This document shows, in pieces, positions 3,832 through 41,092 of a stretch of DNA of 47,071 nt. Source of the stretch: Oscillospiraceae bacterium (GTDB lineage: Bacteria; Bacillota; Clostridia; Oscillospirales; Acutalibacteraceae); contig SVPD01000018.1 in assembly GCA_015066045.1 (NCBI GenBank), positions 1 to 47,071 on the forward strand, read 5' to 3'. Numbering within the stretch: position 1 is the first letter of the stretch; each line of letters begins with the position of its first letter. Under the pieces are notes generated by a model. It was not told the DNA's origin and did no database searches. It saw only the letters and a program-made list of their open reading frames with translations. The position numbers and the translations under genes were made by a program.

Positions 3832-3872
3832 GTGTTTACAGCTCAATATCGCATTATATAAATTGGAATTGG

Positions 3873-4322
3873 TCAATGTACAAAATACAGTTCATTCCAC
3901 TTGATATTGCCTACGCTCAATCCTTGAATAAACTCGTCAAGACTGCACTCGTAATTCACCGTGTCATTAGATAAATCTTGCACCCTAAGTAATACTGCAA
4001 TTTTGTTAATTGGAGATTGTTCTATGTAGAACGAAAGAATGTTTTTTACATATTCACTCCACTTTGGAACTACTTGTACATAAGGAACCCCTTTCGCTGC
4101 AATATCAAAGAAGGAATCTTCACAGCGAATGGGATCAGGAAGGCAAACATTGTACCAACATCCCAATAGCTTGTCGGCTGTATGGAAATGATAGTTTTCA
4201 TTGTAAAATGGCTCTGAATCTTCGGTTCTTGCATAACCTTCAACGACAATATCATTCACATTGGAGGGGGCAGAGATCCGATCTTGTCCTATACAAATAA
4301 TTCCGAAGTCTATCCAAATCAC
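3873..4322 (-). CDS. Orphan hypothetical protein (about 149 aa)
   Basis: I do not recognise this protein. It is soluble, acidic and rich in aromatics (GYARTEDSEPFYNENYHFH near the start, GNIKWNELYFVH at the C-terminus), with two Cys around residues 55-65. No signal peptide or membrane segment is visible. The GTG at 4322 is preceded by GAGAG with 9-base spacing; a TTG at 4331 is the alternative. A promoter-like extended -10 lies about 40 bases upstream. It is the last gene of the island, between hairpin array A and the ylbJ terminator. The size and isolated setting would fit an immunity or defence accessory protein, but nothing in the sequence proves that. Confidence 0.6.
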   Translation of the reverse strand: MIWIDFGIICIGQDRISAPSNVNDIVVEGYARTEDSEPFYNENYHFHTADKLLGCWYNVCLPDPIRCEDSFFDIAAKGVPYVQVVPKWSEYVKNILSFYIEQSPINKIAVLLRVQDLSNDTVNYECSLDEFIQGLSVGNIKWNELYFVH

Positions 4323-4361
4323 AAAAATCAACTCTCAGTCAAATTCTTATTTTTAGAACTA

Positions 4362-4389
4362 ATTATAGCATATCATATATATTGTTAAA
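4362..4389 (-). promoter_or_regulatory. Extended -10 promoter for the 149-aa orphan gene
   Basis: Minus strand: TGC-TATAAT (-10 at 4367-4362) with a weak TTTAAC at 4389-4384 and a 16-base spacer. It sits between hairpin array A and the gene start. Confidence 0.55.
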
Positions 4390-4416
4390 TTTCAATGTTG
4401 AAGTTCCGTGAAAAAT

Positions 4417-4556
4417 CAAGGCAAAGCCTTGTATATCATCAAGCCGACAGAAATACACTCCTTCGGTGTGATGATTTACACGTTAGCGCGTGATGATATA
4501 TCAAGCCTATCGGCTTGGATAAAAAAACCGACAAGTCAAAACTTGTCGGATTTTTT
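4417..4556. repeat. Hairpin array A (modular tandem short hairpins)
   Basis: Successive short inverted repeats, each beginning CA and ending TG: CAAGGC-AAA-GCCTTG (4417-4431), an outer arm CAAGCCGACAG (4440-4450), an imperfect CACTCC/GGTGTG hairpin, CACGT/GCGTG, then CAAGCC-TATC-GGCTTG (4502-4517), and a terminator hairpin. Linkers are TATATCAT on the left and ATGATTTA or ATGATATA on the right. The outer arm is complementary, with one mismatch, to CTATCGGCTT at 4507-4516, so the whole can close into a branched structure. It is a shorter version of the array at 5334-5552. Confidence 0.85.
4528..4556. terminator. Terminator closing array A and the 112-aa gene unit
   Basis: CCGACAAGT-CAAA-ACTTGTCGG followed by seven T on the plus strand and preceded by seven A, so it works in both directions. 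The same stem recurs at 5523-5548. Confidence 0.85.
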
Positions 4557-4582
4557 GTGTTTACAGCTTAAAATAGCAACAA

Positions 4583-4921
4583 TCATAAATTATCAATGTC
4601 AGATTTGGAAATTTCAACATAACACTTACTACCATTATATAAACTGTCAGTTGTTGCTTCAATCTTTGACAATAGTTCGGTTGTATTTACATCAAATTGC
4701 AGATGCTCAAATTCTTCAGGAAGTTCGTTTCTCGCAATGCAAATAAATTCCCTTTTATCCCAATCAATATCGAAGCTTGTAACAATTGTTGTTCCGTCTG
4801 AAATATCGAAAAATTCTTCTTCATTGTCTATAAAAGATTCATACAAAAATTCAAATAATGCCTCTTTTCCGATTTTAATTATACGATATTTATCATCGGG
4901 TATTCTTTTGTTTTCATTCAT
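4583..4921 (-). CDS. Orphan hypothetical protein (112 aa)
   Basis: A small acidic protein (MNENKRIPDDKYRIIKIGKE at the start), without membrane segments or recognised motifs. An ATG at 4921 has AAGGTG upstream within the end of the preceding gene, only 4 bases away, so the two genes form one transcript with the four-helix-bundle gene. Alternating beta-prone stretches (TTIVTSFDIDW, EFICIARNEL) suggest a small alpha/beta domain. It is followed by a conserved tail (AAGCTGTAAACACAAAAA on the minus strand) and the array A terminator. Function unknown; the partner gene is the best clue. Confidence 0.65.
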   Translation of the reverse strand: MNENKRIPDDKYRIIKIGKEALFEFLYESFIDNEEEFFDISDGTTIVTSFDIDWDKREFICIARNELPEEFEHLQFDVNTTELLSKIEATTDSLYNGSKCYVEISKSDIDNL

Positions 4922-4925
4922 AAAA

Positions 4926-5285
4926 TCAACACCTTACTTTATCAATACTTTCCTTTAAAGTTTTACAACTTGAAATTAACATTCTTCTGATTCTACCACA
5001 AAGATTTCTATTCTTTTTATAAGTAAGCTCGTCTATTGCATTTGTATTAAATAGGAGTTTTAACCAGCCTTCTGTTTCACTGCATTCTTTCAAAGAAATC
5101 TCAAATTTAGAAAGCATATCAGCTTTGCTTTGACCATAATTTGCTTCACGAATATTCGCATAAACACTGCTTGAACTTTTGCGAATTTGAAATATAGTGT
5201 TTGACGAAGTTTTAATATTTTGGCAAAGTAATTCTATATCCGTCGCTAACCGTTCAGAATACATAAGCAGATAATTAGGAGACAT
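4926..5285 (-). CDS. Four-helix-bundle protein (S23/IVS-protein family)
   Basis: 119 residues from the ATG at 5285, which has a clear AAAGGAAGTGG upstream. The segment SSSSVYANIREANYGQSKAD followed by KFEISLKECSETEGWLKLL matches the signature of the four-helix-bundle family named after proteins encoded in 23S rRNA intervening sequences; the accessory protein Avd of diversity-generating retroelements belongs to the same fold. These proteins bind nucleic acid through a basic surface. The C-terminus here is basic (KKNRNLCGRIRRML). No reverse transcriptase or template repeat is visible nearby. It is the first gene of a two-gene operon, transcribed from a good promoter that begins inside the hairpin array. 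Confidence 0.75.
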   Translation of the reverse strand: MSPNYLLMYSERLATDIELLCQNIKTSSNTIFQIRKSSSSVYANIREANYGQSKADMLSKFEISLKECSETEGWLKLLFNTNAIDELTYKKNRNLCGRIRRMLISSCKTLKESIDKVRC

Positions 5286-5307
5286 ATAACCACTTCCTTT
5301 TATAGTG

Positions 5308-5336
5308 ATTATACTATAAAGTTTTGCTAAAATCAA
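5308..5336 (-). promoter_or_regulatory. Sigma-A promoter of the four-helix-bundle operon
   Basis: Minus strand: TTGATT (5336-5331), 17-base spacer, TATAAT (5313-5308). The -35 shares its first bases with the last bases of the first hairpin of array B (5334-5348). Confidence 0.8.
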
Positions 5337-5552
5337 TGCGTAGCATTGTATATCATCAATTCCAAAGGAATTGCATATCATCAAAACGAAGTTTTGTATA
5401 TCATCAAGCCGACAGAAATACACACCTGCGGTGTGATGAGATACAAGGACGGCATCGCCGCCCTTGATGATATACACGCTGAAGCGTGATGATATACCAA
5501 GCCTGTCGGCTTGGATAAAAAAATCCGACAAGTCAAAACTTGTCGGATTTTT
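5334..5552. repeat. Hairpin array B (eight tandem hairpins, palindromically arranged linkers)
   Basis: Stems in order: CAATGC/GCATTG (5334-5348), CAATTCC/GGAATTG (5357-5373), CAAAAC/GTTTTG (5382-5396), outer arm CAAGCCGACAG (5405-5415), CACACC/GGTGTG (5421-5435), CAAGGACGGC/GCCGCCCTTG with one mismatch (5444-5466), CACGC/GCGTG (5475-5488), CCAAGCC/GGCTTGG (5497-5514), then the terminator ATCCGACAAGT/ACTTGTCGGAT (5523-5548). Loops are 3-4 bases. Linkers of 8 bases read TATATCAT, CATATCAT, TATATCAT on the left and ATGAGATA, ATGATATA, ATGATATA on the right. The outer arm is perfectly complementary to CTGTCGGCTT inside the last hairpin. The array abuts the tRNA-Arg 3' end. Confidence 0.9.
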
Positions 5553-5629
5553 TGGCCCGCACGAAGGGATTCGAACCCCCGTTCTTCAGAATCGGAATCT
5601 GCTGCGTTATCCGGCTGCGCCACGTGCGG
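5553..5629 (-). tRNA. tRNA-Arg (anticodon CCG), CCA encoded
   Basis: A 77-base cloverleaf on the minus strand. The acceptor stem is CCGCACG/CGTGCGG (perfect, 7 bp) with discriminator G and encoded CCA. The T arm is GGGGG-TTCGAAT-CCCTT. The anticodon loop TTCCGAT gives CCG, reading the Arg codon CGG; the first pair of the anticodon stem is a G/A mismatch. A 3' terminator (5523-5548) is shared with hairpin array B. The 3' end of a tRNA is a common integration target, and the accessory island begins exactly here. Confidence 0.95.
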
Positions 5630-5639
5630 TTATCAAAAA

Positions 5640-5664
5640 AGCTGCTGCCCTTATGACACCAGCT
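5640..5664 (-). terminator. Weak terminator after the 97-aa gene
   Basis: Minus strand AGCTG...CAGCT followed by TTTTT. The five-base stem with a long loop is weak, so read-through into the tRNA is plausible, and I see no separate tRNA promoter. Confidence 0.4.
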
Positions 5665-5678
5665 CTTTCCTTTTTCTT

Positions 5679-5972
5679 TTATTCGGCGAGTGCTCTTTCG
5701 AGCCAAATTCTGCCGATGTCCATAGCGGAATAAAGACCTTTTTTCTCAGTTTTCTGTGCGATTCTGTCGTGAGGTCTTACATCCGGATCGGTGTTAATGA
5801 GCTGAACGGAAACCTTATCTGCCACTGCTAAGCCATCAACATCCTTTGTGCTTAAAATCTGGAACATAACTACAAATTTATCACTCATATTACCGTAGTA
5901 AAGAGTGTTTCCCTTTCTTACGAGGGGCTTGTCTTTATATGTGAGAAATTCGTTTTTCTTTTTAGCTGCCAT
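5679..5972 (-). CDS. Conserved-looking hypothetical protein (97 aa)
   Basis: A small soluble protein starting MAAKKKNEFLTYKDKPLVRK, with a beta-rich middle (NTLYYGNMSDKFVVMFQIL) and an amphipathic C-terminal helix. I do not recognise a named family. The ATG at 5972 is preceded by AGGAGG. It lies 16 bases downstream of ireB on the same strand and is very probably co-transcribed with it. Codon use matches the GC-richer genes to its right, not the AT-rich island to its left. Confidence 0.75.
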   Translation of the reverse strand: MAAKKKNEFLTYKDKPLVRKGNTLYYGNMSDKFVVMFQILSTKDVDGLAVADKVSVQLINTDPDVRPHDRIAQKTEKKGLYSAMDIGRIWLERALAE

Positions 5973-38187: not shown

Positions 38188-40809
38188 TTAGCCTAAGGAT
38201 GCGAGACTTTCGTCGATCATCTTGATTTTTTCGGTGAGCTTTTCAGCGTCTGCCTTCTGTCCGTCGATAACATTCTGAGGAGCCTTGGCGAGGAAGCCGG
38301 GGTTATTAAGCTTGCCGTTAATCTGTGCGAGCTTCTTTTCGGCTGCTTCCTTTTCCTTCATAAGGCGCTTTCTTTCAGCCTCGAAGTCAACGAGGTCACC
38401 CATGGGAATGTAAATCTTAGCGTCGGCAGTAACTATGCTTACGCTGCCGTCGATGGCGAAGCTGTCGCCTACTGTAACATCAGATGCGGAAGCGAGTCTC
38501 TGCATAAAGACTACTGCAGTCTCGAAAATATCCTTCTTATCCGTAGCGATGTAAACGTGAGCCTTTCTCGAGGGAGGTACGTTCATTTCAGCGCGTCTGT
38601 TACGGACTGCTCTGATGGCATCCATAATGATGCCCATTTTCTCCTCGTCCTCGGTGAAGACTAAAGCTTCACTGAAGGTAGGCCAAGCGGAAAGCATAAC
38701 GGTTTCGCCGTCGTGGGGAAGAGTCTGCCAGATTTCCTCGGTGATGAAGGGCATAAAGGGATGGAGAAGCTTCAGCGTTTCGCTCATTACATAAACGAGA
38801 ACTGCACGTGCCGTCTCTGCCTCTGCGCCGCCCTTCTGAAGTCTTATCTTGGCAAGCTCGATGTACCAGTCGCAGAATAAATCCCAGATGAAATCATAAA
38901 GCTTCTGTACGGCGATGCCGAGCTCGAATTTATCAAGATTATCAGTAACCTCTTTGGCCAGACTGTTAAACTGTGAAAGAATCCACTTATCCTCGAGGGC
39001 AAGGTCAGCAGGAATATGAGGTGCCTTTTCATCCTCGGTAAGGTTCATAAGGATAAAGCGGGCGGCATTCCAAATCTTGTTAGCAAAGTTACGGGAGGCC
39101 TCGACCTTCTTATCGGAATAACGCATATCGTTTCCGGGACTGTTTCCTGTGGCCAGAGTGAAGCGCAGGGCATCAGCACCGTACTTGTCGATAACGAGAA
39201 GCGGATCGATGCCGTTACCGAGAGATTTACTCATCTTTCTGCCCAGCTCGTCACGGACGATGCCGTGAATGAACACTGTGTCGAAGGGAACCTCACCCAT
39301 CTGCTCGCAGGCGGAGAAAATCATTCTGGCTACCCAGAAGAAAATGATGTCGTAGCCTGTAACGAGAGTGCTGGTGGGATAATAGTGCATAAGCTCGGGA
39401 GTCTTTTCGGGCCAGCCCAAGGTAGAGAAGGGCCAGAGTGCCGAGGAGAACCATGTGTCAAGAGTGTCGGGATCCTGAGTGATGCTTGTACTGCCGCATT
39501 TGCAGCACTTTTCGGGAGTTCCCTTTGAAACGGTGATTTCGCCGCAGTCAGCACAGTACCAGGCGGGAATTCTGTGTCCCCACCAAAGCTGACGGGAAAT
39601 ACACCAGTCACGGATGTTTTCCATCCAGTTATAATAAATCTTATCAAAGCGTTCGGGAATGAATTTGACCTTTCCGTCACGTACTACCTTGATAGCAGGC
39701 TTGGCAAGAGGCTCCATCTTAACGAACCACTGCTTGGACACTCTGGGCTCTACGGATGTGTGGCAGCGGTAGCAGGTGCCTACCTCGTGCTTGGTGGGCT
39801 CAATTTTTACTAAAGCACCCGCCGCATCAAGGTCAGCGATGATAGCCTTACGGCATTCCATAAGGTTCATTCCCTCATATTTGCCTGCCTTTTCGTTCAT
39901 AAATCCGTCGTCGGTCATTACATTGAGAACGGGAAGATTACAACGGAGACCTACCTCAAAGTCATTGGGATCGTGGGCAGGTGTGATTTTAACTGCGCCC
40001 GTACCCTTGTCCATTTTAGCATAGGTATCGGCTACGATGGGAATTTCTCTGCCGATAACGGGAATTACTACTGTTTTACCGATAAGGTCGGTATATCTTT
40101 CGTCATCGGGATGCACTGCTACGGCAGTATCACCGGGGATGGTTTCGGGACGTGTGGTTGCTACCTCGATGTAGCCGTCGCCGTCCTTAAAGGGATAACG
40201 GAAGTGCCAGAAGTTACCGTCCTGCTCCTCATATTCAACCTCTGCATCGGAAATGGAGGTCTTACAGTGAGTACACCAGTTGATAATTCTTTCACCGCGG
40301 TAAATGAGTCCCTTTTCATAAAGATTTACGAAAACCTCTTTAACTGCCTTTGAGCAGCCCTCGTCGAGAGTAAAGCGTTCTCTGTCCCAGTCGCAGGAGG
40401 AGCCCATTTTCTTAAGCTGCTCGATAATTCTGCCGCCGTACTGAGCTTTCCAGTCCCAGGCTCTTTCGAGGAAGCCCTCTCTGCCGAGGTCCTCTTTGGA
40501 AATGCCTTCGGCCTTCATAGCCTCTACGATTTTAGCCTCGGTAGCGATGGAAGCGTGGTCAGTGCCGGGAAGCCAGAGTGTGTCGAAGCCCTGCATTCTT
40601 CTGAAGCGGATAAGGATATCCTGAAGAGTGTTATCGAGGGCGTGTCCCATATGAAGCTGACCTGTGATGTTTGGTGGGGGTATTACGATAGTATAAGGCT
40701 TTTTGGTTTCATCTACCTTTGCGTGGAAGTATTTACCCTCGAGCCAAGAAGCATAGATTCTGTCTTCAACGTCCTTGGGATCATACTGCTTAGCAAGTTC
40801 CTTTGCCAT
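38188..40809 (-). CDS. valS: Valine--tRNA ligase
   Basis: 873 residues from the ATG at 40809 with AGGAG upstream. The class Ia motifs are clear: HMGH at 53-56 (HIGH) and KMSKS near 523. [20 protein letters not shown] is a ValS hallmark, the editing domain lies between, two CxxC pairs form a zinc site (CADCG, CCKCG), and the C-terminal coiled coil with many Lys/Glu ([20 protein letters not shown]) packs on the tRNA. It charges tRNA-Val and edits Thr-tRNA. It is controlled by a T-box leader (40848-41092). Confidence 0.98.
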
Positions 40810-40847
40810 TTTAATCATCTCCTGTATTTAAAGTAATATTTTATTAA

Positions 40848-41092
40848 ATAAAAAACTCCGTCCCGAAAAATCAGGACGGAGAAAAATACCGTGGTACCAC
40901 CTGAATTCGGTGCCAAAGCACCGCACTCGAAATCTTTAACGCAGAAATACGTCGGGTTCTAATCAGCCGCGGCCTTTCTTCCCGAAGCTACCGGACTACC
41001 TTCACACATCACCACCAAAGGCTTTCACCAGCCGCCTTTTCTCTGAGCGTGTCTCCGTGCTAATCCTTCCGGTCATAGCCGTAAACAAATAT
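40848..41092 (-). ncRNA. T-box riboswitch controlling valS
   Basis: The minus-strand leader carries the T-box AGGTGGTACCACGG (40902-40889), followed by the terminator CTCCGTCC/GGACGGAG (40881-40856) and a T run. The T-box sequence can pair alternatively to make an antiterminator when uncharged tRNA is bound. Stem I is closed by GCTA..CCGG and CCGG-TAGC. On its 3' side the specifier region reads GGTAGTCC (about 41000-40993), which offers GTA or GTC; both encode valine, consistent with the gene. Read-through rises when charged tRNA-Val is scarce. Confidence 0.95.

Follow-up and report, generated by a model that had tools for sequence, protein, structure and literature searches.

Repetitive extragenic palindromic (REP) sequences and bacterial interspersed mosaic elements (BIME), with their REP-associated tyrosine transposases (RAYT), are dispersed hairpins that carry a conserved GTAG foot, lie both forward and inverted, and have a cognate Y1 HUH transposase gene; in REP-iREP pairs, the hairpins are arranged as mirror images. 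The attC sites of integrons carry the core boxes RYYYAAC and GTTRRRY, and group IIC introns insert just behind terminator hairpins. The motif Gut-1 (RF01706) is listed, in the part of Weinberg (2010, PMC2864571) that deals with it, as a noncoding RNA from human gut sequence only, and in the literature searched RF01706 was found only in that paper. The proteins of the S23 family, or 23S rRNA intervening-sequence proteins (IVP), had no known function as of 2016 according to the relevant passages of PMC4990558, which also locate S23 relatives in rRNA and report the proposal that the intervening sequences (IVS) are mobile. Here, we analyse an array of hairpins lying between a tRNA-Arg gene and an S23/IVP gene in a stretch of 47,071 nucleotides from an Oscillospiraceae bacterium (assembly GCA_015066045.1, contig SVPD01000018.1, positions 1 to 47,071), called the window in the following.

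The array, at positions 5334-5514, belongs to a large family of hairpin arrays widespread in the bacterial family, and the frequent position of such arrays just behind tRNA genes, together with their match to one S23 lineage, suggests a mobile or maintained genetic element of a kind not described before. Judging by the sequence patterns set out below, we give an even chance to the reading that the array is a DNA site which forms hairpins and acts in cis for a mobile element linked to S23/IVP. A wider proposal is more tentative, namely that the S23 lineage could be the recognition factor of an unrecognised class of elements, with its own hairpin-linker code in each sublineage, written in mirror-image arrays whose halves fold on opposite DNA strands, with single-gene cassettes placed behind tRNA 3' ends and terminators, with Gut-1 as one arm and with the 23S IVS as a distant branch of one protein-based strategy. 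As a system of a protein and a two-strand array, it was not found described among the literature matches listed, nor was any paper among them found to join S23 proteins with hairpin arrays or tRNA-linked units, preprints and most subscription papers lying outside the search; the known orphan motif Gut-1 appears to touch the family in part.

In the S23-linked reading, a complete unit would consist of a terminator hairpin, a two-armed hairpin array, a promoter and an S23 gene, in many cases with a tail motif at the end. By recognising its own linker/hairpin module, the S23 protein would bind the array; copies without S23, in which the same array is followed by other genes, would rely on S23 supplied in trans, so that units could line up like gene cassettes. 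With S23 as the factor, units would move, or would have moved, and accumulate behind tRNA 3' ends and other transcription-unit ends. The folded form would be single-stranded DNA, with the left and right arms folding on different strands, each on one only; the first hairpin (hp1) would alternate between closing on itself and pairing with the centre of the array in a long helix.

The array in the window and its relatives

Read directly from the letters, the stretch 5334-5514 comprises seven hairpins and their 8-nucleotide linkers, followed by a terminator-like hairpin and the tRNA-Arg gene. On the plus strand, three hairpins with their linkers form one half, and four hairpins lie past the centre. 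The natural reading is that of the minus strand, downstream of tRNA-Arg and upstream of the S23/IVP gene, in which order the features are as follows.

5553-5629, minus strand: tRNA-Arg (CCG), its encoded CCA abutting the terminator hairpin of the array at 5553 (ARAGORN, Rfam)
5515-5553, minus strand: terminator-like hairpin opening the unit, with A-run/T-run; its arms are 5518-5533 and 5538-5553 (inverted repeat)
5497-5514, minus strand: hp1, CCAAGCC-GACA-GGCTTGG, arms A and A', loop GACA on the minus strand (letters)
5489-5496, minus strand: linker L1, TATATCAT; ATGATATA on the plus strand (letters)
5475-5488, minus strand: hp2 (letters)
5467-5474, minus strand: linker L2, TATATCAT; ATGATATA on the plus strand (letters)
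5444-5466, minus strand: hp3 (letters)
5436-5443, minus strand: linker L3, TATCTCAT; ATGAGATA on the plus strand (letters)
5421-5435, minus strand: hp4 (letters)
5405-5420, minus strand: centre, TATTT and then A'' CTGTCGGCTTG, complement of the hp1 5' arm and loop; on the plus strand CAAGCCGACAG (5405-5415) and then AAATA (inverted repeat, 100%)
5397-5404, minus strand: linker R1, ATGATATA; TATATCAT on the plus strand (letters)
5382-5396, minus strand: hp5, with a GNA loop (GAA) on the plus strand of the window (letters, loop count)
5374-5381, minus strand: linker R2, ATGATATG; CATATCAT on the plus strand (letters)
5357-5373, minus strand: second right-side hairpin, CAATTCC..GGAATTG (letters)
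5349-5356, minus strand: linker R3, ATGATATA; TATATCAT on the plus strand (letters)
5334-5348, minus strand: final right-side hairpin (letters)

A preliminary description had taken this DNA for a modular array, flipped midway and structurally constrained, which is borne out by the letters and by the fold. As RNA, the array folds at -91 kcal/mol against -46.0 (standard deviation 4.4) in 200 shuffles (z -10.2), and as DNA the z value against shuffles is -11.1; at some ten standard deviations under the shuffled mean, the array is far more stable than chance would give. Of the eight hairpins counted originally, seven make up the array proper and the eighth is the terminator hairpin, and the rule that each begins with CA and ends with TG holds for six of the eight, hp1 being CC...GG and the terminator hairpin departing from it. 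The 8-base linkers and their mirrored reverse complement were confirmed, with a one-base substitution in two of the six, and the outer arm at 5405-5415 proved by inverted-repeat search to be 100% complementary to 5503-5513, within the last hairpin, as had been proposed. The tRNA, the S23 gene, a second copy of the array and the sister arrays, some of them matching Gut-1, lie outside the stretch then described.

More copies are present in the source genome, on contigs C53, C52, C7 and, truncated, C3. A DNA search (E ≤ 0.001) matched window positions 5395-5552 in 16 of 34 genomes of the same genus, some of the matches being partial, and a pattern made of the two right-hand linkers with any hairpin between them was detected in 42 of 300 family genomes, corresponding to 28 of 135 genera, with 0 for the reversed-pattern control in every listed row; the linker grammar is thus found elsewhere. 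The same pattern occurs in at least 115 stretches of named genomes, nearly all of which, among the 80 titles listed, are metagenome-assembled genomes (MAGs) of Clostridia or Oscillospiraceae, many from ruminants, and in 10 contigs of viral collections. One match (L185) lies in a MAG titled Alphaproteobacteria and could be the result of transfer, chance or a binning error.

For the comparison, 105 distinct oriented arrays were extracted (115 before the removal of exact duplicates), orientation requiring a T-run and then ATCC ahead of the first linker, so that arrays without that end are not among them. More than a dozen further linkers were found in sister arrays, most of which share one plan with the window array: a terminator and hp1 lead into L-hp-L-hp-L-hp, then come a complement of the hp1 5' arm and loop, R-hp-R-hp-R-hp, a promoter and a gene. 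The linker words include TATATCAT, TATGTAAT, TATGGAAT, TGAAAT, GTGATGC, ATGAAGC, GTGAAGT, TGAATTG and GTTATATT. In the TATTCATT linker type, this plan is not evident; at L356, L367 and L400, AT-rich TATTCATT/AATGAATA repeats accompanied by S23 genes look like decayed or divergent arrays.

By the features tested, the array is neither a CRISPR array, an attC site nor a REP element, in agreement with the preliminary description. A CRISPR array, which would have near-identical repeats and unique spacers, was rejected, since here the repeated parts are the 8-nucleotide linkers and the variable parts the hairpins. The units resemble integron cassettes in that single genes stand in rows behind a fixed point, every one of them with a folded site whose sequence varies; however, the array stands ahead of the gene, the fixed point is a tRNA 3' end, and the attC core boxes were found in 0 of 105 arrays (1.8 expected in shuffles), on which count an attC site was rejected. 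The likeness to REP/BIME lies in foot-bearing hairpins in both orientations, dispersed and with a cognate protein gene, whereas the protein is a four-helix bundle, the arrays are longer and the plan is fixed; a REP element was rejected because there is no adjoining Y1 transposase in the source genome and there are no GTAG feet 5' of the hairpins, the one GTAG of the window array lying inside a hairpin. The 23S rRNA IVS, as presented in the relevant parts of PMC4990558, is similar in being a structured insertion tied to a stable-RNA gene with an S23-family gene aboard. In contrast, the window array is multi-hairpin, two-armed and outside 23S rRNA, Rfam finding only a tRNA and a T-box in the window at its thresholds, and many copies lack S23. 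Finally, the arrays stand, like group IIC introns, just behind terminator hairpins, but Rfam detects no intron RNA in the window, and no reverse transcriptase was found among 20 scanned proteins encoded behind arrays.

Pairing and strand polarity of the two arms

The stem letters vary between arrays while complementarity is kept, so the differing yet internally complementary stems noticed at the outset go with compensatory changes in related copies. Among hairpins with a clear stem, to which the counts are limited, Watson-Crick pairs account for 1119 of 1151 counted pairs on the left side (180 distinct hairpins) and for 469 of 483 on the right (75 distinct hairpins). The helix between hp1 and the centre covaries, with at least 9 of 10 standard pairs in 92 of 103 arrays and fewer than 8 in eight of them; it averages 9.39 of 10, compared with 7.31 for shuffled partners (maximum 7.92 in 2000 shuffles), in a test that covers 21 different arm sequences, leaves 2 of 105 arrays unparsed and uses shuffles that ignore relatedness. 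The loop of hp1 changes along with the centre, and therefore the centre is more than a copy of the 3' arm of the hairpin. Arm A is thus predicted to have two alternative partners, the adjacent A' and the central A''.

The two sides differ in their loops. On the top strand of the cassette, the 180 distinct left-side hairpins show 80 GNA/GNNA and 2 TNC/TNNC loops, and the 75 right-side ones 1 and 45, respectively. DNA hairpins in which C-G closes a GNA loop are unusually stable, and the GNA strand is on average the more stable one by both DNA and RNA energy parameters. Mismatches on this strand are G-T in 22 cases and A-C in 2 within the linker family of the window (binomial p 4e-5), 3:0 in the remote sister families, and 26:4 in all families together (p 6e-5). 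The near-linker families TATGTAAT, TATGGAAT and TATGTCAT agree in GNA:TNC polarity (left 5:0 of 14, right 0:6 of 11). In the more distant sister families, whose linker words have the opposite direction, the polarity is swapped (left 0:44 of 68, right 23:0 of 45). Parting the sister families sharpened the loop polarity and weakened the G-T figure; with a cruder pairing used earlier, G-T to A-C had been 38:2 and 22:2 in the first half and 7:6 and 3:6 in the second. Within one S23 subclade, L363 and L354 have both linker direction and loop polarity reversed with respect to each other (ACTTCATT first and GTGAAGT first, respectively), the polarity of L363 being that of six hairpins.

Because loops, mismatches and fold energies favour opposite strands, the left and right arms appear tuned to folding on different strands. 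Such opposite polarity is not expected from a single transcript or a single strand, and it constitutes an unusual signature that can be searched for elsewhere. This evidence bears on the proposal that the array is a Gut-1-like noncoding or leader RNA, transcribed by read-through from the tRNA or from a promoter of its own and perhaps bound by S23, a reading that we consider unlikely. The tolerance of G-T over A-C on the GNA strand (22:2, or 26:4 with the sister families) is as for RNA, the strand preference is the same with RNA as with DNA parameters, relatives of S23 are located in rRNA according to the passages of PMC4990558 that treat them, and six of 16 sister loci match Gut-1 above threshold. 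However, no single transcript suits both halves, given loop counts of 80:2 and 1:45 and their reversal in the remoter sisters (0:44, 23:0), and the array stands between a terminator-like hairpin with its T-run and a promoter-like stretch; for these reasons the structured RNA suggested in the preliminary description is disfavoured in the form of one long RNA, and the opposite polarity led to the rejection of that form as first choice. The use of GN(R/Y)A loops to discriminate DNA from RNA was dropped, as 21 GNRA and 17 GNYA loops with both halves counted point to neither (8 and 24 when only one half is counted). The other early suggestions were a recombination substrate and cruciform-forming DNA; a hairpin-forming DNA site is favoured, short of proof. 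The computed fold of the window array also includes left linkers paired with right linkers, so that a rod may form; against it, the last left linker is TATCTCAT, mismatching an ATGATATA partner, in 35 of 103 arrays, but TATATCAT in 48.

Gut-1 itself was not detected at E ≤ 1 in window positions 4300-5700 (threshold of the model, 50 bits), and at E 1 the array region gave one chance-level match to a small RNA (19.4 bits against a threshold of 229). A search of 14 sister loci at E 0.05 yielded four Gut-1 matches above threshold, three below it only (L417, L339, L349) and seven loci with none, and two further sister loci, picked for their alike linkers, were also above threshold. The six loci above threshold (L370, L377, L382, L383, L389, L419) lie next to S23 genes and, in several cases, to tRNAs as well. 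The three hairpins of Gut-1, with their repeated TGAAAT-type linkers, correspond to hp1-hp3 of some sister arrays, and in five sister loci the other arm matches Gut-1 on the opposite strand, once above threshold. The context differs from that of the listed motif, as Gut-1 is here one arm of a two-armed array beside a tRNA or terminator and an S23 gene. The orphan motif of 2010 is thereby put in context, and it may not be a one-strand RNA at all.

A lineage of S23 proteins and diverse cargo genes

PF05635 was detected in 31 of the 34 genus genomes and in 0 of 14 control genomes. DNA upstream of 80 PF05635 matches and of 30 further loci from a protein search was labelled for arrays automatically, from repeats of a word in forward and then in inverted orientation, and by visual inspection. 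In a tree of 107 S23 proteins, all 51 array-labelled ones fell within one group of 59 (Shimodaira-Hasegawa-like approximate likelihood ratio 97), and 0 of the 48 outside it were labelled; one of the 51 labels (a row of L400) comes from the protein alone, its upstream DNA being cut off, and several of the 8 unlabelled members of the group show, by eye, partial arrays or a cut contig. Presence or absence of an array required 7 changes on this tree against a shuffled mean of 35.9, and the linker types (16 states) 20 changes against a shuffled mean of 49.0 and a least possible of 15, on a quick tree of 118 columns with 43 of 104 inner branches open and IVS proteins left out. The TGATAT label took 4 changes for 5 rows, hence forming no single clade, and several labels have one row. 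Linker type appears, on this tree, largely to follow the S23 subclade. At an identity of at least 57%, the S23 clade is present in 26 of the 300 family genomes; the array pattern occurs in 21 of the 26 compared with 42 of 300 overall (Fisher p 2.4e-16), with a cut that takes in sister-linker proteins and a test that ignores the shared descent of genomes; at 75% identity or more, the hand count is 15 of 19. This pairing of protein and array offers S23/IVP, a family with no function known according to the relevant passages of PMC4990558, a testable partner. Several S23 copies in the family carry internal stops, as expected for an element with turnover.

The tracking of S23 subclades by linker type, the TGATAT label excepted, also argues against a REP/BIME-like passive repeat, whose spread would be due to replication-fork copying or homologous recombination, with S23 as a hitch-hiker. 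The plan with its A/A'/A'' alternative is kept, and no Y1 transposase lies beside arrays in the source genome. We judge this explanation improbable, even with mirror-arranged hairpins that recall REP-iREP pairs, S23 absent from most arrays and near-identical units in tandem at L236 and L114.

Behind the 105 arrays, an S23 gene was found in 12 cases, another clear gene in 44, a doubtful open reading frame (ORF) in 38 and none in 11. Of 43 distinct non-S23 cargo proteins, 20 were scanned, of which 16 have a Pfam match at E 0.001, three of these 16 below the cut-off only; the matches comprise YcxB, DUF386, a zincin-like peptidase, an acyltransferase, an esterase, a phosphoesterase, ankyrin and GIY-YIG-like T5orf172, among others. 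P-loop kinase-like cargo (Zeta_toxin/CPT/AAA, all below cut-off) recurs behind arrays of different genomes, at L091 (537-1046), L228 (4967-5476) and, by eye, L120.

The absence of a common theme among the 20 scanned proteins is of consequence for a regulatory explanation, in which S23 would be a DNA-binding regulator and the arrays operators or transcriptional insulators ahead of a diverse regulon. Arrays do stand directly ahead of promoter-like stretches, with the exact word TATAAT in 45 of 101 arrays, where shuffling would give 8.4 (78 and 67.8, respectively, with one mismatch allowed). The distance from the last linker to the start codon, last hairpin included, is 62-63 nucleotides in 10 of 12 S23 genes, and that from the last linker to the ATG is 59-64 nucleotides in 10 of 44 other cargo genes. 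Against this, tRNA adjacency and tail motifs are left unexplained and a paired structure of 180 nucleotides exceeds the needs of an operator, so that we give the regulatory site little credit.

Placement of the units and neighbouring genes

Fifty of the 105 arrays begin 50-63 nucleotides behind a tRNA gene on the same strand, 13 isotypes being represented. Among the 98 arrays with at least 160 nucleotides upstream, 49 stand behind a tRNA, eight more behind the tail GTTGCYATTTTRAGCTGTAAACAC and 41 behind neither, many of the last lying by eye behind a tRNA end or a piece of one; CCAAAA is found within 75 nucleotides ahead of the first linker in 75 of the 98. With up to four mismatches, the searched loci contain 20 copies of the tail motif, 19 of them directly followed by an A-run. 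Such tails lie at unit ends at 3833-3855 and 4558-4580 of the window and at L076, L077, L086 and L149, among other loci. Units are stacked in the order tRNA, unit, unit. At L236, the two arrays are separated by a copy of the last 21 nucleotides of its tRNA-Arg, and at L114, the second unit stands behind a degenerate tRNA-Cys end. If units do move, they would represent a cassette system at tRNA genes of gut Clostridia, helping to explain the variable flanks of these genes.

The genes upstream of the orthologous tRNA-Arg are conserved in 14 of 14 relatives. Downstream, in stretches of about 10 kb each (less than 2.1 kb in two), the six other downstream genes of the window were not found in any of the 14 relatives searched for an empty site, and one of them carries an S23 relative at 42% identity. 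Across the 27 loci compared, the CCA of tRNA-Arg is followed by window-type arrays, sister arrays or plain terminators, as sorted by eye, and we count these different occupants of the same tRNA-Arg in related genomes in favour of the S23-linked element. An insert of about 170 bp that folds back on itself was seen, by eye, right behind tRNA-Arg at L260, L253, L256 and L276, with a tRNA-Ser version at L087 and L093; it opens with the T-arm in reverse complement and closes with a repeat of the 3' end of the same tRNA, the repeat at tRNA-Arg matching the adjoining gene. Attachment by a tyrosine integrase at tRNA ends was also considered; repeats of the tRNA 3' end reach 16 of 22 positions in just 6 of 41 loci.

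Other sites are also occupied. Closely similar GTTTTATT/AATAACAC arrays with S23 genes lie behind different genes in three genomes (L330, L336, L339), one of them behind rplL (L7/L12) and one behind valS, and the same array is absent from the site in the relatives compared (12 for rplL, 15 for valS); at L468, a short stretch at that site resembles a remnant of another array type. As units of this kind sit behind rplL and valS and each supply a terminator-like hairpin, transcription-unit ends of any sort may serve as the target.

Several observations weigh against the S23-linked mobile element. Most arrays are without an S23 gene, and no recombinase, transposase or reverse transcriptase was found among the 20 cargo proteins scanned. 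In the source genome, where placement was checked, none of the 7 tyrosine-recombinase matches (PF00589) lies on the five contigs with a recognised array, no search being aimed at IntI itself, and the sole Y1-transposase match (PF01797) is on C51, a contig with no recognised array. Neither an excision product nor a circle was detected, nor a clean empty site, for which the synteny downstream of tRNA-Arg is too scrambled. The six loci with tRNA 3'-end repeats, among which are L236 (21/22) and L089 (19/22), compare with 1.0% of 1837 control comparisons, and in two of the six (L196, L227) the end of another tRNA in the same locus, taken as control, scores equally or higher. Tail motifs also precede units without a visible array in the stretch examined; therefore, movement of the unit and the array may be separable. 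With respect to polarity, the hp1/centre helix shows no G-T preference (G-T 18, A-C 23), the near-relative linker families give G-T 1 and A-C 2 on the favoured strand, the Rfam model of Gut-1 is on the TNC-loop strand, opposite to the one favoured by the loops, and the loop polarity could be the legacy of an old inverted duplication.

Next to the array, the window holds the S23 gene and a second unit, as follows.

5286-5333, minus strand: promoter-like spacer TATAGTATAAT and stretch AGGAAGTGG resembling a ribosome-binding site, ahead of the S23 gene (sequence)
4926-5285, minus strand: S23/23S rRNA intervening-sequence protein (IVP), four-helix bundle family, 119 amino acids (PF05635, E 5.3e-18)
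4583-4921, minus strand: ORF of 112 amino acids in the S23 unit, no Pfam match (ORF list, Pfam)
4558-4580, minus strand: tail motif GTTGCTATTTTAAGCTGTAAACA, end of the first unit (motif search)
4415-4557, minus strand: second, shorter array and its terminator-like hairpin (DNA search, letters)
3873-4331, minus strand: ORF of 152 amino acids behind the second array, no Pfam match (ORF list, Pfam)
3833-3855, minus strand: second tail motif, a weaker match, followed by an A-run (motif search)

The S23 gene starts 48 nucleotides from the array, and its product passes the curated cut-off of PF05635 (65.6 bits against 33.8) and matches PDB entry 2rld at E 1.1e-14; a profile of 28 array-type S23 proteins matches the solved structures 2rld and 2gsc, with five chains each. 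The second array of the window, a copy spanning 4415-4555, has one hairpin behind its centre and two between the centre and hp1. Finally, a T-box leader is located at 40869-41085 (minus strand), upstream of a valyl-tRNA synthetase gene (38188-40818).
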